Of a stretch of DNA of 50,918 bases, positions 13,979-28,979 are shown piece after piece; position 1 is the first letter of the stretch, and every line of letters begins with the position of its first letter. Source of the DNA: a virus. The DNA is taken from positions 1 to 50,918 of IMG/VR virus record IMGVR_UViG_3300012931_000029; one strand, 5' to 3'. Both the position numbers and the translations under genes were made by a program. Under the pieces are notes generated by a model, which was not told the origin of the DNA, made no database searches, and saw only the letters and a list, made by a program, of their open reading frames with translations.

Positions 13979-14712
13979 AAGAGAAACTTCTGATTGTTGT
14001 CGCGTGTTTTAACAGGCCAACCCACACCAGGCACTGTCTGGAGACGCTGGCCGCAAGCAAGGCACCGCAGGACATACTCTGCTGTTTCGATGATGGCAGC
14101 ACAGAATACCACGCCGGCTTTCTTGGCTCCTTTGCGGAGTTGAACTTCAACACCAACCGCCGCATTGGCATCCACGCGCAGCGGATTCTCCACTTTCAGT
14201 TTGCAGGAGAGATGATGGGAAAGATTCCGGAAATCACTCGCCTCTACCTTACGGACAACGACACGATCCACGACCCGCATTGGCGCGACAATCTCGTTCA
14301 GGTTCAAGACGAGTATGACGGGGCGCTAGTGTGCGGTTACGACACGCTTTCCCATTCTACGCTTCCCGGAAACACATGGCGGGACGATCCAGGCGAGCGA
14401 GTGATCTGGCGCAAGTATGCTCCAGGCGTGAGCTACCTTCTGACCGCCGACCATGTTACAGTGGTGAATGGCAGGCGCAACATGCTGCAAGCCGGATGGG
14501 ACTGGATAGTGCCCGACTTGCTAGGAAATTGCTGCGCAATCACGCGGCAGGGGTGGCTCGACCATATAGGATTTGGCGGGGACCGTCACCCATCTGACGA
14601 TGGGCCGGAAGGTGGGGACCGGGTTGCTAACCCAACTGCGTGGTTGCAACGCAAGCGGGCAGAGGTCATCGCTGAACTCAAACATGACGCCACAAGAACA
14701 AAAGCTGATTGA
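13975..14712 (+). CDS. Glycosyltransferase-like protein (family 2-like)
   Basis: 245 residues starting MKEKLLIVVACFNRPTHTRH, with CLETLAASKAPQDILCCFDD (DD pair) and RLYLTDNDTIHDPHWRDNLV (DxD site), as in GT2-type enzymes. FGGDRHPSDDGPEGGDRVAN near the end is acidic. The ATG overlaps the stop of the preceding gene. The last 29 nt overlap the large terminase gene, so the sugar operon runs directly into the packaging genes and is probably transcribed with them. Confidence 0.75.
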   Translation: MKEKLLIVVACFNRPTHTRHCLETLAASKAPQDILCCFDDGSTEYHAGFLGSFAELNFNTNRRIGIHAQRILHFQFAGEMMGKIPEITRLYLTDNDTIHDPHWRDNLVQVQDEYDGALVCGYDTLSHSTLPGNTWRDDPGERVIWRKYAPGVSYLLTADHVTVVNGRRNMLQAGWDWIVPDLLGNCCAITRQGWLDHIGFGGDRHPSDDGPEGGDRVANPTAWLQRKRAEVIAELKHDATRTKAD

Positions 14713-16519
14713 CGACGCAATTCGCGGCGATGCCGGTGTATGGTTCGAGGTCAACGGGAAGATTTTCGACAAGTGCCGGAATCTCATCAGCCCGACGTGC
14801 AACTATCTCCAGCGGTTGATTCAGTCGGTGGTCAACAAGATGCGGGCTCTGAACCTGCCTATCCGTCTGATTGCGCTCAAGCCCCGCCAAAAAGGATCGA
14901 CCACGTTCTTTGGTGCGCTCGACTATACTTGGTTGCGCAGCCGGCCAACGGCGGCTTGCGTCATCGGTGGCCAGTATTCTCAGACCAGTTCACTTTGGCA
15001 GATGCTCCAGACCTATCACAAGTGGGATCATTTCGACTGGGGCAACACGGGTGAGATAAATGCAAAGGAGGGGCGCTGGTCGCACGGCAGCACGCTGATT
15101 CAGGAAACGGCCAACGATTCGCTGGCAGGCGTCTCGGCTACCTTCCAATTGATTCACTGCACTGAGACCGCGCGCTGGGCAGAGTATGGCGTGAGCAACG
15201 CGGCGGACGTTCTGGTAAACTTGCTGAAGTGCGCCCCGCTTCTGCCTGAGACGGTGGTGATTCTTGAGAGTTCTGCGGAGAAGCAATCTGGCGATTTCTA
15301 TAATAGGTTCGTGGAAGCGGTGGACGCCGAGGCTTTCCTGAATGGCGAGGTAACGGTTCAAGCCGGGCAGTTCGTGCGCCTGTTTGCGCCGTGGTTCGAG
15401 TTCGAGGACAGCACGCTTTCCGAACACCTGACCGATGACCAGAAGCGGGCGGTGGAAGAATCGCTCGACAAACACGAGGAGTTCTACGGGGAGAAGGAGC
15501 TAATTTCAAAGTATGCCACTCCGGGCGCCGATGGGGTTGTGCGATTCGGCGGATCGGTCAAGACGCATGACGTTTGGGAGCAACTGGCGTGGCGCCGATG
15601 GGCCATATCTGAGGAGTGCAAACGCGACAAGTCCATCTTCGACCGGGACTATCCCCACTCGTGGGAGGATGCGTTTCAAAAGAGCGGCGAACTGCGCTTC
15701 AACGCAACCGGGCTGAAGGTTCTGGAAAAACGGCAGTCAGCTCATCCGGCGGAGTTTGGCATCCTTGAGGAGAACAAGAACGGCAAGATGGTGTTCCGCC
15801 CCACTGATGAGAGCGAGGCCCAGATTGTAATATTCGAGCGCCCGATTGCCACAAAACGCTACCTTGAAGCAATCGACCCGATGACCGGCATCATGCAGAC
15901 AGGTGGCAAAGACCCAGACTATCATAGCACGTTCATCCTGCGCGCAGGTTATTACGATAATTCCGGTCGGTGGCGTAGGCCGGCAACGGCGGCGCGCGTT
16001 ATACAATGCCGCTGGGATATTGACGTTCTGGAGGAGCAGTCTTGGCGACTGGCCCGCTTCTACGGCGGCAAGGGCGGTTGCAAGATTGTCGTTGAAATCA
16101 ACAAGGACCGTGGACTGATCGAACTATTCAAGCAACGCTCGGCTGATCTCTACCAGCGCGAGATATTCAACCAGCGCGAACAGAAGGTGACGAGCGCGCT
16201 CGGTTGGGATACCACGCCAAAGACCCGCGAACGATTGATCGAGAACTTGGCCAGAGCCGTGCGCGAGTGGGACAAGGACGGTGATGGAATCGACATTTTC
16301 TGCCCGATTGCGGTTGGGCAGTTGAATCACTTCGTTCGCAAACACGATGGCAGGAGCGAGGCAAGCGCTGGATGGCATGATGACGACGTGCTTGCGTTGG
16401 CCATCGGCTACTTGCTGATCGACCACGCTACGACACTGGCAGTGGAGGCCGGGCAGAACATCATTCCACCTGACTTGCGAGAGATGGCTGAAGCGGGATA
16501 CCCAAGCCAATTCTCGTAA
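14684..16519 (+). CDS. terL: Large terminase subunit
   Basis: 611 residues. The packaging motor and nuclease that threads phage DNA into the capsid. Walker A-like ALKPRQKGSTTFFGALDYTW (about residues 66-85) is the K-x-R-Q-x-G-x-S/T form usual in terminases. A Walker B-like segment is QLIHCTETARWAE. The nuclease domain shows LEAIDPM, then IVVEINKDRGLIEL and WHDDDVLALAIG as acidic metal sites. The start MTPQEQKLIDDAIRGDAG is preferred over an upstream ATG at 14573, which would overlap the glycosyltransferase by 140 nt. No small subunit is next to it. Confidence 0.9.
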   Translation: MTPQEQKLIDDAIRGDAGVWFEVNGKIFDKCRNLISPTCNYLQRLIQSVVNKMRALNLPIRLIALKPRQKGSTTFFGALDYTWLRSRPTAACVIGGQYSQTSSLWQMLQTYHKWDHFDWGNTGEINAKEGRWSHGSTLIQETANDSLAGVSATFQLIHCTETARWAEYGVSNAADVLVNLLKCAPLLPETVVILESSAEKQSGDFYNRFVEAVDAEAFLNGEVTVQAGQFVRLFAPWFEFEDSTLSEHLTDDQKRAVEESLDKHEEFYGEKELISKYATPGADGVVRFGGSVKTHDVWEQLAWRRWAISEECKRDKSIFDRDYPHSWEDAFQKSGELRFNATGLKVLEKRQSAHPAEFGILEENKNGKMVFRPTDESEAQIVIFERPIATKRYLEAIDPMTGIMQTGGKDPDYHSTFILRAGYYDNSGRWRRPATAARVIQCRWDIDVLEEQSWRLARFYGGKGGCKIVVEINKDRGLIELFKQRSADLYQREIFNQREQKVTSALGWDTTPKTRERLIENLARAVREWDKDGDGIDIFCPIAVGQLNHFVRKHDGRSEASAGWHDDDVLALAIGYLLIDHATTLAVEAGQNIIPPDLREMAEAGYPSQFS

Positions 16520-17819: not shown

Positions 17820-20800
17820 ATGGCGGAAATCGACAACGGTATTCAGGAACCGGATGAAACTCAGGATGATGTTGTTCAATCAGCTCCGGCGCTTGGAGTA
17901 AGCACGAGAGGAAGGGCGACGCCGCGCGGAACAGACCTTAGCGTTTCCAACAGCCTGTTATTGGCAACTCCGCAAGGAGAACGGGCATCGCAACAGGCGT
18001 ATCAACAGGGCAGGCGCGATGCGCTTGATCGGCAGAACTCGGCGCTTGAAGCTAAGTTTCGTGGCAGTCGGGCTCGATTCTACAAAGACCCCGAATCGGG
18101 GCTATACACCCAAGAAGTAGAGACCGAGACGGGGAAGCCGCTTTTCCACGAAACGACATGGGAACCTGGAGCGATTCATCCCAAGACTAAGGCACCGGCC
18201 TATGTAAAGCGCAACCAGTATGGAGAACAGGAGTTTAAGCACGCGCCAATTGTCCGCGGAAGCGACCCGACAGACGACCAGCTCTACTATCATTTTAAGG
18301 AGACTGACGAGCAGATTCCAGCCGGAAAGCTGACAGACTTGATGAATCACCCCGAGCCGCAGGTTGCCAGAATGGCACATGTTGCAAACATGCAGCGGAC
18401 AAAGGCGATTTGGGATGAAGCATTGCAACCCCACAAGGAGTCGTTGCAGAAGGCGGAGGCAGACTTGCGCGATGCCCGCGACACGGCGGCAGCGTATGGG
18501 AGTGAAATCGCCGCCTTGCAAAAGCAGCAGGAAACCGCCGCTGATCCGACCATTGCGGCGGGACTTCAGGCCAGCATCGACCAACTAGCAAATGATCAGC
18601 AGTCACTTATCCAACGCACCGGAAAGACCGGAGACCTTAGCTTGGCCCATCGCCGAGCGCAGACAGCCTTTGGGATTTTCAGTGCGAAGGCGCGTGCGGC
18701 TGAATATGAGGCCAGGCGCGGCGCTCGTATTGCGGTGTTGAAAGAGAACGGATTGCCGACAGAAGGCGATCCGCAGTTGGCAGAAATCGACGCTGCACAG
18801 GCGGCAGTTAATCAGGCATTTAACGATCACGTTGGGGAACACCTCGAAAGCGTGGCCGGCAAGCTGGCGCAGCAAGACCAGCAGACGGCGGCGCTGACTG
18901 CCGGAGAGCCAAAGGCTTTGTTGCAACGCGGCCTCAAGAACGTGGGTGGGATTTCGGTCGAGGATGTTATCCGCCGATATGGCAACTTCCAAGGCGAGCC
19001 TCCTGCGGCAGCAGTGCTGAAAGTTCACCAGCGGCTAGGCGAACTCGAACAAATGCTGGCCGATCCTGAGTGGGCTACGCCAAAAACGGCGAAGGCATTG
19101 CAGGACGAGCAGACCTACCTTGGCCAGCTTTACGACCAGCGCGTTGCTAGGATGTCCCCAGCTGCAAAGGAAAGACTGCAAGCGACGATTGACGCGCAGA
19201 CGACATCAACGATGGGAGCGGTTGGGCGCGCGGCTGGCATGGGGCTGGCCCCGGCGGCAGGCGCATGGGGTGGCGCAGAGTCAGGAGCGGCGCTTGGGTC
19301 TGTTGTAGGACCTGTAGGAACGGTTGTTGGAGGCGGTCTCGGCGCATTGATCGGTGGAATACTGGCAAACAAGGCGCAGAGCAGGGCGTTGGAAAAGCTG
19401 GCTCCGGAAGCGCACAAGCAACTCGTGGAGTTGCAGGTAATTGATTCTGAGCAGCACCCGTTTGCCTCTACTTCCGGCGGACTGCTGGCGAGCGTTCCAA
19501 TCTTCGAGATTCAAGGCCCGTTGGCTGCGGCCAAGGGACTTGCGTCACTATTCAAACTGGCCAAGGGCGAGACTGTAAATGCCGCCGAGATGCTGGCGGC
19601 GAAGGCTACTGCAATCCAGTCCGGCCTTGGCGCCGGACTTGGCTTGGTTGGTCCGATGATCGAAGGACAGGCTCCGACCGTCAAGGACGTGACACAAAGC
19701 GTTGCACAGGTAATGATGTTTGGGGCGCCCAGATTTGGCGGCAAGGGTGGCGCGGCACAGCCGGGCAAGCCTGGAGCGCAGCCGGCTACAGAAACCCCGC
19801 CTACGTCAGCCGGTGGAACGCCAGCGCCGATTTTACCGGAACCCCCGCCGCCAGTGAAGTCGGCCAAGGAAGCAGCTTGGGAGATGGCCATGCGGGAAGG
19901 CGAGGAGCCTGTTAAGCGCGAGACGATCAAATCAAGCGGTGGCGACGAAGCGCCGTTTGCCGAGCACGTTGCCCGTGCCGACCAAGTTGTGAGGAAGTCG
20001 CCCATAGGCGGCGAACTTATTAGTCAGCAACTTGATACCGAAGCGAATGCCAACCGGCTTGGCGCGAAGCCAGCGCAGATTCCGGCCCAAGCACAGCATG
20101 GTAGTTCAGCGGAAGAACGCTTGCCTCATACGCAAGAGGTCGCCGGTTCAAATCCGGTCCATGCAACCATTCCCGCACCGCAAGCGACGGTTGGCCCCGG
20201 TGGAGAAATCAAGGCTCCCGTGGCGCCCGCCGAGCAGCCACTTCGCCCCAGTGGCGAACAAGCGCCCGCACCAAGGGCCGAACCGGCATTGCCGATTCAA
20301 CCAAGTGCTCCGACTGCCCCGGCGGCAGCGGAGCCAATTTCGACTACCTTGCCGGAGCCTGTCGGGGGTAGCAGAGTTGGACAAGGGGTGAATGAGACGG
20401 CAAAACAACAGGCTCCGGCATCTGTCGATCTAGGGCCGATGGAGATGCCTTTTCAGGAGAAGAGCTCGACCCACCCGGATTTAAGAATCCGGGAAGACCT
20501 TCCTGAAGCAAAACCCATAATTGATAAGATAGATGAGATTGTTAAACGCGGAACAGACCGACAGGCGGCAATGTCGGATGGTCAGGTTAAACAACTTACC
20601 CATCCATTTGACACGCTGACATCTGCCGAAAAGGAGGAGTTGCATAATCTAAAAATGCAATTGCGCCCCAAGAGCGCGCAAGAGGCCAGGGCGGATATTT
20701 TGAAGAAACGCGCTGATCGAAAAGCGCAGACAGAAAGCCGACAACCCGAAAGGCTGCCGCTTGAGCCCGCGCCCGAACGCTCCCCGATGGAGCGCGCAAC

Positions 20801-23800
20801 TCAGGAAGCAATCGAGCGGACAAAGAACCTAGACTTTGCAGAACGAAGAAATCAAGCCGAGGCATTGAATGTTATTCGGAAGATAGCCGCAAAGCACGGA
20901 GTAAGCGCAGCGGAATTAAACCGCGCGGTAGTTTACAGACCAGAAAAACCAGCGCCTGAAGTTTCTTCCAAAACAGAAACAACTCCCGCGCCTGTTGTCG
21001 CTGAAGAAAACAAGCCAATTTCAATTCAACCCACGGAGGCACCAAATGCCCTACAAAAGCCTAGCGCAAGCAGCCTACTTCAACGTCCACAAGAAGGAAC
21101 TGGAAAAGCAGGGGGTGAACGTCAACGAGTGGAACAAGGCGAGCAAGGGAAAGCCGCTCCCGAAGCACGTCCCGCAGAGCCAGCCAAGCCCGCCCAAGAA
21201 AATCCGCCGCCTGTTCAGCAAGAAGTAACCAACGAATTGCCGACACCGGCCCAAATGAAACCCGCTGAACTGCGGGCGGAATTAGCCGCATCTGGAATTA
21301 AAACAGTTTCGGGCGGTGTTCCGATAGAAGAAGCAAGATCGAACCAACTTAAGGCGGCAGTCGGTAAACTGCGCCAAGGCAAAGAGGTTTCTTCGTTAGC
21401 AGAGGCCAAAACAGGTTCGATAAAAATTGAAGACGCGCAGGCTGCGGTTGCCGAGTGGAAGGCGAAGAACACGAAGGCGCCGGAAATAGAAGTGGTCAAC
21501 GACCCGGAGTGGACGGAGAACGGGCGCGGGGTGCGCGGGCAGTATCGGGATGGCAAGCTGGTCATCAATTCCGCCTATGCCGACAGCGCCGCGACGATCC
21601 ATGAGATTGCCAACCATGAGTGGGCGCACGACACGCTGGCTAGCAAGCAGGGCAAACTGGCGTTGGCCGCGTTTGCCACGCGGGAATTGCCGGTGGCGGA
21701 CCTTGACGCACTCAAGGCAAAATATCCGCAACAGGCGGGTGAGAGCGTGGTCGATCACCGGATGCGTTTGGTGGAGGAATGGGCGGCGAAGAACGCCGAG
21801 AAGAATCCAAGCGTGTGGCGGAAGATCGTGGATGCGGTGCGGGGCTGGCTGGCCGACCGTGGCTTGGTCACGCTGACGCACGATGAGGCCGCGCGGGCGA
21901 TGCTGCGGACACTGCGGGGTGGTATGGATGAATCCGCTTTCAATGACTACGCCGATGCTCGCTCAAGTCTAGGCGGGTATGCTGACGACTTCTCGAAATC
22001 TAATCGCGCAATTGATGCAGAGGCAAACGGCAGATTTCCCGCCTCAGAAATTGCCCGTAAATTAGGATTGCCGACAAAATTCATCACCGACCATGCGCCG
22101 AATACAGGCGAATGGCATCATACCAGCAAATTTTACAATACGACCGATTACTACGATCTTCAACAAGTGAAGGATTGGCTACACGGGGAAGGCGATTATG
22201 CGGAGGGTGGTGAACGCGCAGAAGCCCGAACAGGCAATGATGTATTGGCTGAATGGAAAAACAAGCAGAAGGAAATTTCTGTCAAGCCTAGTGACATTGC
22301 GAAAGGCGTTTCTGTTAAGTATCTAGAATGGAGTGGTTCACGAAACCATCCTGTCGCAACAGAACGCATAGAGCACAATGTTACGGTAGAGCGTAAGCCG
22401 GGACAAAAGTTTCTTACTATTACCCGACCTGACGGAACAAGTTTTAAGAAGGCACCGACGACCCGTGGATTTGAAATTGCTGAGTCAAAGGAAGGGAAAT
22501 TTGCGCCCGCTGATTACGACTGGCATCTTAATAAGATTCTTGGTGTAGAGCCGAAGGATATTCCACGTTCGAGCCTGGCTGATACCGAGAAAGAACTGCG
22601 GGCTGGTCAGGCGAAGCTCGCTTCCGCATGGAGCAAGATGCGCAGTGATGCCGACCTGAAGCGCACGCTTGCCGCCGACCGGGATGCCGTGGACACCAAG
22701 GCCAACCAGTATTCGCGGGAAGTGCGCAACACGGTGTTCGACCAGTTGAAGCGTTCCATCCCAGATACCAAGGAACTCGCCACCGCGCAGGATGCGCTCG
22801 CCTTCCATATCGAGGCGGGTGGTAGCGCCAAGAAGCTGCAAGAATTTAGGGCGAAGATTGAGGCGTCAACGAAGGCGGCCCCTAAGTGGAAGGCTCGCGC
22901 ACTTGCGGCCATAAACTACGCTTCCGCCAACGGGGCCAAGTTGAGCGACACCGCCGCCACCTATCGCAAGTTCACGGATGAACAGGTTGCCCGCGAACAG
23001 GAGGCCGGTCTGCCGACGCTCAAACGGGACAATTATGTGCCGCGTTACCAAGACATCGAAGAAGGCTCATGGTTTGACACAGGCGCCCACACCTCGCCAA
23101 CGGGCGCATCGAACCGCAAGAACCGCAAATACGAGACGCTGGCCGATTCCATTGCGGACGGTGTTGATCCGAAAACGCTGAATGCTGTCGATGTGTTGGA
23201 CACACGCATCCGGTCCGGCGAGACGGGCATCAATGTGCGGACGTGGCAGAAGTCGCTGAAGGATTACAAGACGCCTTCCGGCGAAGCTCTCGCCCAGACG
23301 CCAACGCGCGTGTCGCGCGCAGATGGCTCATTCTACTACGAACCCGGCAAGGGCTACGTCTTGGAGAATGTCGGCAACACGCCGATTGCTGTCAAAAAGG
23401 AGTTTGCTGGCATGGTAGGGGCGCTGACCGACCCAAGCTGGTTCTCGCAGAGCGCCGCCCGCCAGACTGCGCAACGACTGAACGCCAGTGCCAAGAGCAT
23501 CACGCTGGCGGTCGATACCTTCCATCTTGGCCGGCTGGCTTTCCGCTCCGCGATGATCCGCGCCGCCAGCCTGAAGGATGCGAAGTTTGGTCCCGCCTTC
23601 CGCGAGGGATTGCTGATTGCCGAGCACAGCCCAGCCGAGATTGAGCGCATGGGCAAGTCCGGCGAGATTCCGGCTGAAACCGTTCCCGCCATCTTGGAGT
23701 CGAAGCTGATTCTCCAGAAGGGCATTGACGTTGGCTACCATTCCGGGCGAGTGGCCGATGCGATGCACCAAGAGATGATCCAGAAGGTGCCGCTGCTTGG

Positions 23801-25025
23801 CGACGTGAACAAGTTCATCTTCCAGAAGTTCCAACGCGGGGCGATGAACGATGCGTTTGTCATCGAATACAAGCGGCAGCGGGCGGACTACCCGCAGATG
23901 ACGGACGAGCAGGTTGCCCGCAAGGTCTCGCGGGAACTGATGACGCGCTTCGGAAACCTTGGCCGGCAGGGCTGGTTCACGTCGAAGACGGCTCAGGACA
24001 TGGCCCGCATGATCTTCCTCGCCCCGGAGTGGAATCAGGGTCTCATCCGGTCGGAGATTGGCGCTGTGACGGACATTGCCAAGACTGCTGCAAACAAGCT
24101 GATTGGCCGACAGGCGGCAATGGGGCTTCTTGGCCGAGAAATGGTGACAACCGCAATTGCACTGTTCGCCGGCTCGCAAATCATCAATCAGGCGACGCGC
24201 GGCAAGTTCACTTGGGAGAACCCGGAGGAGAGTTTTGGCGCCAAGATTTCGGCGTGGATTCCCGACAAGCTTGGCGGCAGCAACGGATTCTTCTTCAACC
24301 CGCTTGGCCTCACGGCAGAGACAGCGCATCTGATGATGAACGCCTACGAGCGCACGGGCAACACCTACGAGCCGATTGTGAGCTACGTCCGGTCTCGCGC
24401 CTCTGCTACTACGCGCCCGGCATGGACGCTGGCCACGGGCAAGGACGCCTTGGGTCGCACGATCAAGGAAGGCGAGCGTTGGCAGGAGACGGCTAAGGAT
24501 ACAATTCCCGCGCCGATCAGCGGTGGCGCGATTATTCGCGGTGCAAGTGGTGTTGTGCAAGGTGGAATGAGCGAGAAGTTCCCCGGTGAATACCAGAAGC
24601 AGGCGATGCAGACTTTCGGCATGAGGACCGAGCTGGCCCCATCTCCAGAGAAGCGGATTCGCATTCTTGCCTCTGAGTTCAACGAGGCGCGCGGCAAGGT
24701 GCAACAGGGCGAGTTTGGCGTGAGCGAATACGCGGAACTGACCGACGCCTTGCGCCGGCAGAACAAGGGCGACATAGAGGACGCCATCGCTACCCTGTCG
24801 GAGAAGCATGACAGCAAGGCCATCGAGGACTACTATCGCCGCTGGCAGCATACCAATTTCACCGGCTCCGCTGTGTCGGAAGCGCAATTCCTTCGCACCC
24901 TCAACGCTGAACAGCGCAAGCAATACCAGGCTGCGCGCCAAGAGCGCACGCGCATCGCAGTCCGCGCCTTGCAGGCGATTCGGAGCTTGCCTGTCGGAAC
25001 ACGAAAGCCAATTGCGGCCAAGTAA
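17820..25025 (+). CDS. Giant internal-virion / polyvalent protein with HExxH motif
   Basis: 2401 residues between terL and portal. Order: a coiled-coil N-terminal region (about 180-330); a glycine-zipper hydrophobic segment (about 461-520; AALGSVVGPVGTVVGGGLGA, LIGGILANKA) that could enter a membrane; Pro/Ala-rich linkers; a zincin-like site NHEWAHD with HExxH at 1266-1270; an HHTSKFYNTTDYYD-type domain (about 1420-1470); and a long helical C-terminus with RFGNLGRQGWFTSKTAQDMA, IFLAPEWNQGLIRSEIGAVT and a hydrophobic stretch MVTTAIALFAGSQII. This fits large multi-domain proteins packed in virions and injected with DNA. Two linkers contain foreign-looking inserts: a tRNA (20095-20169) and an overprinted gene (21046-21228). 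Confidence 0.8.
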   Translation: MAEIDNGIQEPDETQDDVVQSAPALGVSTRGRATPRGTDLSVSNSLLLATPQGERASQQAYQQGRRDALDRQNSALEAKFRGSRARFYKDPESGLYTQEVETETGKPLFHETTWEPGAIHPKTKAPAYVKRNQYGEQEFKHAPIVRGSDPTDDQLYYHFKETDEQIPAGKLTDLMNHPEPQVARMAHVANMQRTKAIWDEALQPHKESLQKAEADLRDARDTAAAYGSEIAALQKQQETAADPTIAAGLQASIDQLANDQQSLIQRTGKTGDLSLAHRRAQTAFGIFSAKARAAEYEARRGARIAVLKENGLPTEGDPQLAEIDAAQAAVNQAFNDHVGEHLESVAGKLAQQDQQTAALTAGEPKALLQRGLKNVGGISVEDVIRRYGNFQGEPPAAAVLKVHQRLGELEQMLADPEWATPKTAKALQDEQTYLGQLYDQRVARMSPAAKERLQATIDAQTTSTMGAVGRAAGMGLAPAAGAWGGAESGAALGSVVGPVGTVVGGGLGALIGGILANKAQSRALEKLAPEAHKQLVELQVIDSEQHPFASTSGGLLASVPIFEIQGPLAAAKGLASLFKLAKGETVNAAEMLAAKATAIQSGLGAGLGLVGPMIEGQAPTVKDVTQSVAQVMMFGAPRFGGKGGAAQPGKPGAQPATETPPTSAGGTPAPILPEPPPPVKSAKEAAWEMAMREGEEPVKRETIKSSGGDEAPFAEHVARADQVVRKSPIGGELISQQLDTEANANRLGAKPAQIPAQAQHGSSAEERLPHTQEVAGSNPVHATIPAPQATVGPGGEIKAPVAPAEQPLRPSGEQAPAPRAEPALPIQPSAPTAPAAAEPISTTLPEPVGGSRVGQGVNETAKQQAPASVDLGPMEMPFQEKSSTHPDLRIREDLPEAKPIIDKIDEIVKRGTDRQAAMSDGQVKQLTHPFDTLTSAEKEELHNLKMQLRPKSAQEARADILKKRADRKAQTESRQPERLPLEPAPERSPMERATQEAIERTKNLDFAERRNQAEALNVIRKIAAKHGVSAAELNRAVVYRPEKPAPEVSSKTETTPAPVVAEENKPISIQPTEAPNALQKPSASSLLQRPQEGTGKAGGERQRVEQGEQGKAAPEARPAEPAKPAQENPPPVQQEVTNELPTPAQMKPAELRAELAASGIKTVSGGVPIEEARSNQLKAAVGKLRQGKEVSSLAEAKTGSIKIEDAQAAVAEWKAKNTKAPEIEVVNDPEWTENGRGVRGQYRDGKLVINSAYADSAATIHEIANHEWAHDTLASKQGKLALAAFATRELPVADLDALKAKYPQQAGESVVDHRMRLVEEWAAKNAEKNPSVWRKIVDAVRGWLADRGLVTLTHDEAARAMLRTLRGGMDESAFNDYADARSSLGGYADDFSKSNRAIDAEANGRFPASEIARKLGLPTKFITDHAPNTGEWHHTSKFYNTTDYYDLQQVKDWLHGEGDYAEGGERAEARTGNDVLAEWKNKQKEISVKPSDIAKGVSVKYLEWSGSRNHPVATERIEHNVTVERKPGQKFLTITRPDGTSFKKAPTTRGFEIAESKEGKFAPADYDWHLNKILGVEPKDIPRSSLADTEKELRAGQAKLASAWSKMRSDADLKRTLAADRDAVDTKANQYSREVRNTVFDQLKRSIPDTKELATAQDALAFHIEAGGSAKKLQEFRAKIEASTKAAPKWKARALAAINYASANGAKLSDTAATYRKFTDEQVAREQEAGLPTLKRDNYVPRYQDIEEGSWFDTGAHTSPTGASNRKNRKYETLADSIADGVDPKTLNAVDVLDTRIRSGETGINVRTWQKSLKDYKTPSGEALAQTPTRVSRADGSFYYEPGKGYVLENVGNTPIAVKKEFAGMVGALTDPSWFSQSAARQTAQRLNASAKSITLAVDTFHLGRLAFRSAMIRAASLKDAKFGPAFREGLLIAEHSPAEIERMGKSGEIPAETVPAILESKLILQKGIDVGYHSGRVADAMHQEMIQKVPLLGDVNKFIFQKFQRGAMNDAFVIEYKRQRADYPQMTDEQVARKVSRELMTRFGNLGRQGWFTSKTAQDMARMIFLAPEWNQGLIRSEIGAVTDIAKTAANKLIGRQAAMGLLGREMVTTAIALFAGSQIINQATRGKFTWENPEESFGAKISAWIPDKLGGSNGFFFNPLGLTAETAHLMMNAYERTGNTYEPIVSYVRSRASATTRPAWTLATGKDALGRTIKEGERWQETAKDTIPAPISGGAIIRGASGVVQGGMSEKFPGEYQKQAMQTFGMRTELAPSPEKRIRILASEFNEARGKVQQGEFGVSEYAELTDALRRQNKGDIEDAIATLSEKHDSKAIEDYYRRWQHTNFTGSAVSEAQFLRTLNAEQRKQYQAARQERTRIAVRALQAIRSLPVGTRKPIAAK
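20095..20169 (+). tRNA. tRNA with CAT anticodon (Met/Ile2-like), inside the giant ORF
   Basis: A complete cloverleaf can be drawn. Acceptor AGCATGG pairs with CCATGCA (6 of 7 pairs; A-A mismatch at 1-72). TA at positions 8-9. D stem GTTC/GAAC with loop AGCGGAA. Anticodon stem CTTGC/GCAAG with loop CTCATAC, anticodon CAT at 20127-20129. Variable AGGTC. T stem GCCGG/CCGGT (one G-T pair) with loop TTCAAAT. Discriminator A166, then encoded CCA (20167-20169). The anticodon stem lacks the three G-C pairs of initiators, so it is elongator Met or Ile2 (CAT). It is read in frame by the surrounding ORF (about residues 759-784). Confidence 0.85.
21046..21228 (+). CDS. Small protein overprinted in the +1 frame of the giant ORF
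   Basis: 60 residues: MPYKSLAQAAYFNVHKKELE, KQGVNVNEWNKASKGKPLPK, then a basic tail ending IRRLFSKK. A perfect Shine-Dalgarno GGAGG at 21035-21039 sits 6 nt before the ATG. The pattern MPYKS-AQAAYF---KKELEK-GV-V-EW--ASKG--LPK is one I recall from small conserved phage proteins. In the frame of the giant ORF the same DNA encodes only a Gln/Pro/Glu-rich linker (about residues 1076-1137), as expected if this gene was captured by the larger ORF. Function unknown. Confidence 0.7.
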   Translation: MPYKSLAQAAYFNVHKKELEKQGVNVNEWNKASKGKPLPKHVPQSQPSPPKKIRRLFSKK

Positions 25026-25040
25026 CACGTAATCATTACC

Positions 25041-27347
25041 ATGAGCGACCAAGTTCAAAGTTTTGTTTCCGCCGCTACCGCCGCCGCAGATTCTGCCGGA
25101 GCCACGACCACAGCGGAAGATCAAGCCAAGGTTCCGTTTGTCTCCGCGCTCGTGCTGTCGTGTGAACAGGAAAAGAAGATGGTCGATCACGCCTTCAGTC
25201 GAATGCAGGAGCTGACCAACCAGACCTCGCGCGACTTGGTTATGAACCCAACTTGGTGGGCGAACAGCAACGTGCCGGCGCCTGCCGTCTCCGCCTTTGC
25301 CGCCGCCGCACAGGGCTTGCTGCCAGCCGATACGTTCATGGGCAAGCGCACGCGCTACGACGCCATGTTCATGAACGACGTGAGCTGGCGCCCGTTCACA
25401 ATGGGGACGACAAACATTTTCCAGCAGTCGAATCTTGTGGTCCCGCTGACACGCCGCATCGTGCGCCAGATGATTGCCCGCGCCAAAAACCACTTCTTCG
25501 GGAGCGATCCTTGGCTTTCCGTAGCCCCTGCGCCACGCCCGGTGGAGGCTGGTGACGACGCCTTTGCCGACCGGGTGGAGGACTTCGTTCTCTACAAGCT
25601 GACTGAGAGTTGTTCGCGCGACGACAAGGAGAACGCCATCGAGCGCGCTTTGGTGCTGGGTGAGTGCGCCGTGAAAACATCCTACGTTGTTCGAGACCAG
25701 ATATTTGACGTAGACGCGCGTGTTCTGGTTAACATCGAAGGGCAACCCGAGAAGGCGGCAGACGGCAACTTTATCACCGACCAAGACGAGTGGGAAGAGA
25801 AGCAGGTTGAGATGGAACAGGAGCCTCAGCCGCAACAGGCTGAACTGGAGATGCCCGGAGTTCCTCCACAGGCTCCCGTTGTTCCACCAGTGTCAGTTGG
25901 GCGTGTGCTCAAGCGCGACGGTGTTACGCCAGAGCCTTCCGCCCCGGTCTGGCAAAAGATGAAGATCAACCGCCGGCAGGTGTTTTTCGAGGGAGCCAAG
26001 AGCGAAGTCATCTACTACAAGGATTTCCTCTGCCCGCTGACGGCGAAAGACGTGCAGACCGCCGACTGCATCATCCACCTCTACGACAAGCCGGTGATGG
26101 CTTTCATCGACCTGTTGGTGAAGCGCGGCATGGTTCCGGGCGACACGGACTCGCGCCTCAACACGGTGTCGAAGATCGCCGCGCTGGTGAAGGCTATTGC
26201 CTCGAATGATGCGCAGCCAAAAGCCGCCGCCGACCAACAACTTCGCCCGAACGAGAATTTCCAGAACGGCACTCCACCGCATGAGGGGCAACCCGTGGCG
26301 GAGTTCGCAGAGTTCTACATGTGGTATGACGCCAACGGCGACGGCGTGGCGGAGAACATCATGCTGATTGCCGACCGCAAGACGCGGCTTCCTATCTTCT
26401 ATGACCATGTGGCCAACGTGACCACGGATGGCTTGCGACCGATTGAGATTGTGCGCGTCAACAAGGTGGATGGGCGGTGGTATGGCGTGGGCATCATGGA
26501 ACTGTTCGAGTCCTACCAGACAATTACTGACTTGCTCGTGAACCGATGGAACTTCTCTCAGAGCCGGGCTGGTCGCGTGGACTTTTGGGACCCCACTGGC
26601 ACGCTGGAAGGCGACCGCGATCCGAACCTGAAACTTAACTGGGGATCGAGCTACACGAAGAAGCCGGGTCGCAAGATGGACGACATCTTGGAGGTGAAGT
26701 ATCTGACCGACATCAAATTCGAGCAGATACAGACGATGATGCAGTTCTTCATGCAGTTGGCGATGAACGAGAGCGGGGTGACGAACGCCAACGACAACTA
26801 CGTTGCCGGAATGGAACAGGCGAAACTCGCCACCGGACTGATGCAAATCCAGCAGTCGGGCGACGAGATGTTCAAGCCCATCGTGGCCGAACTGCGCAGT
26901 CCGCTGGAGCGAATCATCAAGCGCGAGATTGAAGTGCTGCTTGCCAACATGAACCCGGAGGAGGTTTACGAGGTGCTGGAGGGCAAGACGATGGGGCTGG
27001 AGAAGATCACAGCCGCCGAGGTGCGCGACTTGCGCTACCATGTCCGGTTCTTGCTCACGACGACGAAGAATCAGCAGACCTTGCAGACGGCGGCAGCGGC
27101 CTCGCAACTGGTGGAACGCTTTTACACGCTCATCCCGCAGATTCAACAGCAGGTGGTATCGTTCTACCGCAAGCAACTGCGGGCGCTCGACCCGGAGTGC
27201 GACGTGGACACGATCATCCAGCCGGGCATCACGATGCCTCCTGCCGGCGGCGGAATGGGCGGGCCGAATCCGGGCGGTGACAACGGCAATCCGTCCTCGC
27301 TTGGCGTGACGCCTAACGCCCCACCCCCGCCGCAGATTCAGGCGTGA
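25041..27347 (+). CDS. Portal protein (short-tailed phage type)
   Basis: 768 residues. Features typical of large podovirus-like portals: an N-terminal helical domain, SWRPFTMGTTNIFQQSNLVV, LTRRIVRQMIARAKNHFFGS, and an acidic insertion rich in Glu/Gln/Pro (about 250-295). EFAEFYMWYDANGDGVAENI, then RPIEIVRVNKVDGRWYGVGI, MELFESYQTITDLLVNRWNF and a C-terminal barrel-like helical stretch with an Asn/Gly/Pro-rich end complete it. It forms the ring through which DNA enters and leaves the capsid. It follows the giant internal protein by 15 nt. An intrinsic terminator lies 50 nt downstream. Confidence 0.82.
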   Translation: MSDQVQSFVSAATAAADSAGATTTAEDQAKVPFVSALVLSCEQEKKMVDHAFSRMQELTNQTSRDLVMNPTWWANSNVPAPAVSAFAAAAQGLLPADTFMGKRTRYDAMFMNDVSWRPFTMGTTNIFQQSNLVVPLTRRIVRQMIARAKNHFFGSDPWLSVAPAPRPVEAGDDAFADRVEDFVLYKLTESCSRDDKENAIERALVLGECAVKTSYVVRDQIFDVDARVLVNIEGQPEKAADGNFITDQDEWEEKQVEMEQEPQPQQAELEMPGVPPQAPVVPPVSVGRVLKRDGVTPEPSAPVWQKMKINRRQVFFEGAKSEVIYYKDFLCPLTAKDVQTADCIIHLYDKPVMAFIDLLVKRGMVPGDTDSRLNTVSKIAALVKAIASNDAQPKAAADQQLRPNENFQNGTPPHEGQPVAEFAEFYMWYDANGDGVAENIMLIADRKTRLPIFYDHVANVTTDGLRPIEIVRVNKVDGRWYGVGIMELFESYQTITDLLVNRWNFSQSRAGRVDFWDPTGTLEGDRDPNLKLNWGSSYTKKPGRKMDDILEVKYLTDIKFEQIQTMMQFFMQLAMNESGVTNANDNYVAGMEQAKLATGLMQIQQSGDEMFKPIVAELRSPLERIIKREIEVLLANMNPEEVYEVLEGKTMGLEKITAAEVRDLRYHVRFLLTTTKNQQTLQTAAAASQLVERFYTLIPQIQQQVVSFYRKQLRALDPECDVDTIIQPGITMPPAGGGMGGPNPGGDNGNPSSLGVTPNAPPPPQIQA

Positions 27348-27884: not shown

Positions 27885-28979
27885 GTGCATATCATCACAT
27901 TAAACGAAAAGCTCCAACACAAGCCCACGATTGATCTTCCCCCCGGCGACTATCTGGCCGAAGATTTGAACGCCGCCCAACTCTTGCTCTTGGCCGATGG
28001 AGGCAAGATCAACTCGGTTCACCCCGAGGAGATTGCCGTGCGCCATCCGTTTGACCCGAAAGAGGATTGGAACGGCAAGCGGGTGCTGGTGATGCGGACG
28101 GGTGGATTTGGCGACCTGATTCTGATGACTCCCGTGCTGCGCGAAATCAAGCGGCGCTGGCCGGATGTGACGCTGGACTTGGCGTGCTTCCCGAACTACC
28201 GCCCGGTGCTGGAGAACCTTCCCTACGTCAACCTTGCCCCGACCTATCCGGTGCCGTGGCTGGAGGCGTTGCAATACGACGCATGGGTGCTGATGGAAAA
28301 CGTCATTGAGAAAAACCCGGATGCGAAGAAGATGCACATGACGGACCTGTTCGCCTCCCGGTTTGGGTTTGCGGCAAAGGACATCGCCGACAAGAAGCCG
28401 GAGTATCGGGTGACGGAGCGCGAGCGCATTTGGGCAGAGGAGGCGTATCCGCGCATCAAGGGTGTGCATCGGCTGGCCGTGCAGTTCAATGCGCAGGTGC
28501 TCAATCGCACCTATCCTGGGCAGAGGATGCAGGTTGTAATCGAGCACTTCCACAAGCTCGGCTGGGAAATCATGGTGATGGGCCGCGAGGGCGAGTTGCA
28601 GATGCAGGAGGGTGATCTCCTGCACAACTTAACCGCGCACAAGCACACGATCCGGCAGAGTGCCGCCGTGATCGCCACGAGCGATTGTCTGCTTGGCCCC
28701 GACTCGGCCTTGCTGCATCTTGCAGGCGCGCTGGACGTGCCGGCAGTGGGCATCTACGGGCCGTTCCCAGCGGAATTGCGCGTGGCCTATTCGCCGTCCA
28801 TTCAGGTGATCGAGGGTAGCGGGCATTGCGCCCCGTGCTTCCACCATGTTCGCAACGGCAAGCAGTTTCCGTCGCACGGGCCTTGCGCAAGCAAGGGCTT
28901 CTGCACGGTGCTCGACAGCATCCCCGTCAAGAAGGTGATCGACCGTGTAACGCTGACGGCCAAGCGGCTGGTCGATTGA
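27885..28979 (+). CDS. GT9-family glycosyltransferase (heptosyltransferase-like)
   Basis: 364 residues with a GTG start (MHIITLNEKLQHKPTIDLPP). The GT9 blocks are clear: VLVMRTGGFGDLILMTPVLR, EIKRRWPDVTLDL in the N-terminal Rossmann domain, and CLLGPDSALLHLAGALDVPA, VGIYGPFPAELR in the C-terminal sugar-nucleotide domain. Cysteines in SGHCAPCFHHVRNG and GPCASKGFC may bind metal or form disulfides. In bacteria such enzymes add heptose to lipopolysaccharide. In a phage late region a role in changing the host surface or decorating the virion is likely. It belongs by theme with the 9.6-14.7 kb operon. Confidence 0.82.
   Translation: MHIITLNEKLQHKPTIDLPPGDYLAEDLNAAQLLLLADGGKINSVHPEEIAVRHPFDPKEDWNGKRVLVMRTGGFGDLILMTPVLREIKRRWPDVTLDLACFPNYRPVLENLPYVNLAPTYPVPWLEALQYDAWVLMENVIEKNPDAKKMHMTDLFASRFGFAAKDIADKKPEYRVTERERIWAEEAYPRIKGVHRLAVQFNAQVLNRTYPGQRMQVVIEHFHKLGWEIMVMGREGELQMQEGDLLHNLTAHKHTIRQSAAVIATSDCLLGPDSALLHLAGALDVPAVGIYGPFPAELRVAYSPSIQVIEGSGHCAPCFHHVRNGKQFPSHGPCASKGFCTVLDSIPVKKVIDRVTLTAKRLVD

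Follow-up and report, generated by a model that had tools for sequence, protein, structure and literature searches.

A widespread small phage gene encoded out of frame within the linker of a giant ORF

We analyzed a stretch of viral DNA of 50,918 nucleotides (IMG/VR record IMGVR_UViG_3300012931_000029, hereafter the window), in which a 60-residue ORF lying out of frame in the inter-domain linker of a giant ORF is very probably a functional small gene, with both frames of the shared stretch coding. The original prediction had pointed to a GGAGG, an ATG 6 nt behind it, and a 60-residue ORF in the +1 frame inside the giant, and all of these coordinates were reproduced (Table 1): the small ORF runs from an ATG at 21046-21048 through 60 sense codons to a TAA at 21226-21228, and its frame is +1 relative to the giant, (21046-17820) mod 3 being 1. 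We propose that the giant mRNA would be translated from the giant's own start, whereas ribosomes would start the small protein separately, at the internal ATG 21046 served by GGAGG. The small gene would be the older of the two frames and the giant's linker the derived one; read in the giant frame, the small gene is stop-free and biased toward a polar, disorder-prone composition. The linker may be able to host the small gene because the shifted frame reads rich in Gly, Glu, Gln, and Pro: across the small gene, the giant frame gives a recurrent linker sequence (NAVQEPSTGGVLQ..QEG.GE.GGERGRVEP), an example of the linker peptide being PSASSLLQRPQEGTGK.

Table 1. Features of the giant ORF, its linker, and the adjoining genes in the window
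Feature	Position	Strand	Evidence or remarks
Nested small gene, 60 aa, MPYKSLAQAAYFNVHKKELEKQGVNVNEWNKASKGKPLPKHVPQSQPSPPKKIRRLFSKK	21046..21228	+	+1 frame of giant ORF; homologs; dual-coding signature
Shine-Dalgarno-like GGAGG	21035..21039	+	6 nt (CACCAA) ahead of ATG; enriched compared to background out-of-frame ATGs
tRNA-Met (CAT), encoded CCA	20095..20169	+	ARAGORN; Rfam tRNA, 63.4 bits; fold z -3.2
Giant ORF, 2401 aa, no internal stop, putative polyvalent-type multidomain protein	17820..25025	+	Between terminase-like and portal genes
Low-complexity linker of giant, residues ~720-1180	19977..21359	+	Houses tRNA and small gene; missing from L037
C-terminal part of giant	21363..25010	+	Conserved in L037, 69-74% aa identity, two blocks
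Terminase-like protein	14573..16519	+	Weak PHROG match, E 5.4e-4, no single stretch passing; no Pfam match
Portal protein, Pfam SU10_portal	25041..27347	+	E 5e-16

A small-protein family in free and nested copies

The length of the small ORF is by itself weak evidence, because it ranks only 5th of 37 among the ATG-started alternative-frame ORFs of the GC-rich window giant; what raises it above chance is its homologs, whose existence a search with the 60-residue product, suggested in the original prediction, has confirmed. This single query retrieved 35 relatives in viral contigs (37-86% identity), and a family alignment of 22 members picked out at least 344 relatives when applied to the first 600 pattern matches in viral contigs, with 80 retained. 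The same alignment found a further 16 members in bacterial or archaeal MAG contigs. Judged by these alignments, the small protein represents an undescribed phage family with the motif MPYKSxAQxxYF...GVNVxEWNxASKGKKLP and hundreds of relatives in uncultured phages; its invariant or nearly invariant residues are M-P-Y, S5, A7, Q8, F12, G23, V24, E28, W29, K34, G35, L38, and P39. The family had no match among the Pfam, PHROGs, and NCBIfam models and nothing notable among PDB sequences. Searches by tblastn gave no match in INPHARED phages (with the small protein and two consensus sequences) or in PLSDB plasmids (with one consensus sequence), and a literature search for the motif strings, covering open-access papers, found none. 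The AlphaFold model has three helices with a loose tail (pLDDT 81, pTM 0.51), for which fold searches against PDB and BFVD returned no notable structural match. The present work adds an unannotated protein family that is common in uncultured phages.

To place the window's copy among its relatives, 123 copies of the small gene were fetched. In 24 of them, the window included, a host ORF of 600 to 4400 codons encloses the gene, with the identical relative frame in all; the main frame of the remaining 99 never stays open beyond 340 codons and in most closes before 125. The idea that this is elsewhere an ordinary separate gene is thus borne out by the 99 copies outside giant ORFs, spread over many other phages. 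The third frame is never long at the small gene (maximum, 255). Going by this ORF structure, at least 23 uncultured phages and bacterial contigs bearing prophages show the same nesting besides the window, and standard gene calling misses the small gene wherever it is nested. All 19 nested records searched hold exactly one copy. The host ORFs are diverse: that of L004 has a histidine phosphatase domain, that of L118 has RNA-ligase and RelA-like domains, and the giant of L093 combines LPD1, SLT, RNA-ligase/Acb1-like, and RadC domains. The L056 giant (L056:1283-14413, 4376 aa), which carries LPD1, ddrB-ParB, and sigma-70 regions 2 and 4, is possibly a virion-delivered sigma factor. Two of the 24 nested copies (L005 and L087) lie 44-49 codons into the host ORF, close to its N terminus.

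The contigs from MAGs (L112-L127) are labeled Acidobacteria, FCPU426, Bacteroidetes, and archaea, with the small gene nested in L118 and L120; these contigs may represent prophages or phage DNA binned in error. Elsewhere, the small domain forms the in-frame N terminus of longer proteins (L058:8001-10361, 786 aa; L047:8001-8696, 231 aa; and L076:2213-3886, 557 aa), the last of which has, besides the small domain, Gly-rich stretches and a weak match to a zinc peptidase.

Origin of the nested arrangement

The direction of the overprinting looks reversed, in that the small gene appears to be older and independent and the giant's linker to be the derived frame. We take the small gene as the ancestral frame because of its wide distribution, following the criterion of a review of overprinting in which the frame of restricted distribution is regarded as de novo (PMC8227390). 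De novo overprinting, in which the nested gene would be the younger one, was considered and rejected, given the prevalence of copies outside giant ORFs noted above.

Free, empty-site, and nested states can be compared directly, in phage groups other than the window's. In an AT-rich group, L001-L003, L052, L072, L097, and L098 encode the C-terminal half of the giants as a gene of its own, directly followed by a free small gene; in L050, L054, and L061 the N and C parts are fused into one giant that lacks the small gene, which lies free past the neighboring c4 gene. In L005 and L087, the mini-domain of the free C genes is followed by an in-frame small-gene segment, after which the C gene resumes; relative to these two, the C genes of L001, L002, L052, L072, L097, and L098 are empty sites. 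In L079, the small gene sits inside an N-type gene, the homologs of which in L097, L098, and L077 have no insert. The small-gene unit therefore occupies different linkers, its host being a C gene in L005 and L087 but an N-type gene in L079. Taken together, these comparisons fit, as far as alignments can tell, the gain of an in-frame segment within linkers, and the three states provide a natural series for how one DNA stretch serves two frames. On a tree built from 43 columns of the small protein, the nested state is scattered (19 changes compared to 21.6 when shuffled), and a single nested clade is not rejected (p-AU 0.11, quick tree), so that nesting may have arisen once or several times. We give about even odds to the small gene being a portable unit that codes in both frames, gained repeatedly in the linkers of ejected giants without breaking them because its shifted frame reads as a tolerable disordered linker. 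If so, reversed overprinting would recur in phages, the derived frame of a larger gene giving room to an old gene.

Another route to the same arrangement, and one that concerns its origin and not its dual coding, is that a free gene was engulfed when the gene upstream of it lost its stop. We consider this read-through rather unlikely. The small gene does lie free beside the same large genes in relatives, and fused giants do exist, but in L005 and L087 the segment sits inside a gene of which the start and the downstream part are both conserved, and the AT-rich free copy follows the C gene or the c4 gene instead of lying between the N and C genes. Of the earlier view that a gene was swallowed by read-through, the formerly separate gene can thus be kept, whereas the clearest pairs (L005 and L087 against the empty-site genes) show an in-frame segment. 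The expectation of a stand-alone copy between the two halves of the giant held in a similarly partial manner: the halves are separate in some relatives, but the free copy is usually found before or after the large gene.

Start signals and constraint in the two frames

The proposal of an independent start for the small gene draws on the sequence around its ATG. Among nested small genes of GC >= 0.38, a Shine-Dalgarno-like site is found in 9 of 13, compared to 94 of 736 (12.8%) other +1-frame ATGs of the same giants (Fisher p = 6e-6); the site is missing from all 11 AT-rich nested copies and likewise from 23 of 24 AT-rich free copies. With the start site also kept, the gene's own translation signals persist, as had been suspected. 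Moreover, in 18 of the 24 nested copies the small frame is closed by a stop no more than 13 codons 5′ of the ATG, and there is therefore scant room for a frameshift into the small frame. This bears on the possibility that a programmed frameshift leads from the giant's N-terminal half into the small frame, which would create an alternative C terminus and no separate protein. The small frame is indeed the +1 frame of the giant, but a shift site would be confined to a very short stretch by the upstream stop, nested and free copies share the position of the M-P-Y start, and the Shine-Dalgarno-like site is enriched in the GC-richer nested copies, so that we regard a frameshift as very unlikely.

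The pattern of variation indicates that both frames of the nested stretch are under selection. Small-protein identity is 0.707 for nested and 0.722 for free copies, and because these values are equal in practice, the nested small gene is not decaying; this, together with the recurrence of the arrangement in 24 loci, argues against the notion of the nested gene as a leftover. Nucleotide entropies at small codon positions 1, 2, and 3 are 0.60, 0.42, and 0.84 bits in nested copies and 0.63, 0.45, and 1.39 bits in free copies. Since the least variable position (2) falls on the giant frame's wobble position, the small frame appears to be the dominant constraint, and since the freedom at the third position is lost in nested copies (0.84 compared to 1.39 bits), the second frame seems to be selected too. 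Amino acid entropy is 0.77 bits in the small frame and 1.35 bits in the giant frame; it is thus the small protein, and not the linker protein in its place, that is better conserved. At matched amino acid identity, synonymous divergence is about 0.36 for nested and about 0.61 for free copies. With the small gene wholly within a longer same-strand ORF, in another frame, at 24 loci and with both frames constrained, the arrangement has the properties of a nested out-of-frame gene.

Constraint from the giant frame is also visible at the codon junctions of the small gene. A T that would make a giant-frame stop occurs at 0 of 238 such junctions in nested copies and at 312 of 854 in free copies (p about 1e-40), a comparison in which the zero count is partly built in, because the nested set was chosen by its open main frame, and in which, as in the other selection tests, related sequences count as independent. 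At "safe" junctions, where no giant-frame stop arises, T occurs at 8 of 293 in nested and 300 of 1003 in free copies; the need to avoid stops does not by itself account for an avoidance of this size. Three signs, that is, open-frame length, synonymous constraint, and composition, are independent of how the nested set was chosen. In composition, the giant-frame linker differs from stop-free recodings of the small gene, with more Glu (0.156 compared to 0.081) and Gly (0.177 compared to 0.089), an enrichment shared by Pro, and with less Lys plus Arg (0.124 compared to 0.239), whereas Cys and Phe are at 0 (compared to 0.064) and Trp is missing. The original prediction held that the main frame encodes only low-complexity linker here; low in complexity it is, but a frame without stops, Cys, Phe, and Trp and depleted of Lys and Arg is not merely passive. 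The other frame of the small gene would account for the recurrent "linker" sequence in giant phage proteins.

As to open-frame length, recoding the same small proteins with the giants' codon usage gave a probability of 0.014 that the giant frame is open in the window; for the majority of nested genomes this value was below 0.01, and it reached 0.44 in the most GC-rich, yet the giants are open in 24 of 24 cases, and the main frame is open through the core in just 1 of 79 unique free copies. These values make it highly improbable that the giant is not one protein, with N and C halves that are separate genes, seemingly fused, and a main frame open by accident. Related giants are split into two genes in L001-L003 and others, but T is depleted even where no stop would arise, and some fusions of N and C parts do not contain the small gene (L050, L054, and L061). 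Finally, that the small ORF is a chance product or dead remnant in a real linker, the giant frame alone being functional, has a negligible probability: ORFs of such length do occur in the GC-rich window giant, but the nested protein is conserved equally to free genes, its variation sits at small position 3 and is least at the main-frame wobble position, and amino acid entropy is lower in the small frame.

Genomic neighborhood, possible role, and related systems

The gene order in the window is weak terminase-like gene, 410-aa gene, giant with small gene, SU10-type portal, and capsid protein; a glycosyltransferase family 9 gene (27885-28979, +) sits between the portal and capsid genes. TerL and/or portal genes lie within 4 kb of at least 53 of the 99 free copies, and the order in L009 and L031 is TerL, small gene, portal. 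Given that the window runs from terminase-like gene through the giant with the small gene to portal, the small gene stays in the same interval. The N-part gene of L001 resembles the N4 virion RNA polymerase. Tentatively, and with somewhat less than even confidence, we suggest that the product of the small gene, small, basic, and modeled with three helices, belongs to the head/packaging module or to the virion and would be made along with the ejected giant but at its own stoichiometry.

A single relative of the window giant, L037, was found in searches of viral contigs with C-part pieces and profiles, the similarity running from residue ~1183 on. In L037, an upstream module unrelated to that of the window (L037:3-990) stands in place of the linker and small gene, and neither the small gene nor the linker tRNA is present in this 17.6-kb record. 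Because the C-part searches returned only L037, the viral contigs supplied no near relative of the window in which the small gene stands free between TerL and portal. The N and C parts of the giant had no match in INPHARED, and megablast with the window DNA gave none either.

Out-of-frame nested genes are known in phages, an example being gene E within gene D of phiX174 (PMC8227390). As in E/D, a complete gene lies here in another frame of a longer same-strand gene, and both frames are constrained. In the usual model, however, the nested gene is de novo and narrowly distributed, whereas here the nested gene is widespread and the host linker appears to be derived; further, the host genes are diverse and the same nesting recurs. 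The hosts also resemble the polyvalent proteins of phages and conjugative elements surveyed by Iyer et al. 2017 (PMC5512222), in that domains of this kind occur in the host giants of L093, L056, and L004, whereas the window giant has no match to a named LPD domain. By the marks of polyvalent proteins, the window giant has 2401 aa, a Gly zipper below the cutoff, no LPD match, and a zincin-like motif seen by eye (HEIANHEWAHD near 21600, in the C-terminal part, without a Pfam match). A term search of the survey found no mention of overlapping or nested genes. The same survey describes cassettes near polyvalent and polymorphic-toxin loci that recombine into the main gene (PMC5512222), and the small units gained inside a modular giant gene are alike in this respect. 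As described there, cassettes add in-frame domains, whereas the small gene codes in the other frame, for a separate protein.

The linker of the window giant is overprinted a second time, by a tRNA-Met gene (Table 1). A tRNA scan of the relatives' giants found none, and of the loci scanned only the window therefore has a tRNA overprint; in the giant frame, the tRNA gene reads AQHGSSAEERLPHTQEVAGSNPVHAT.
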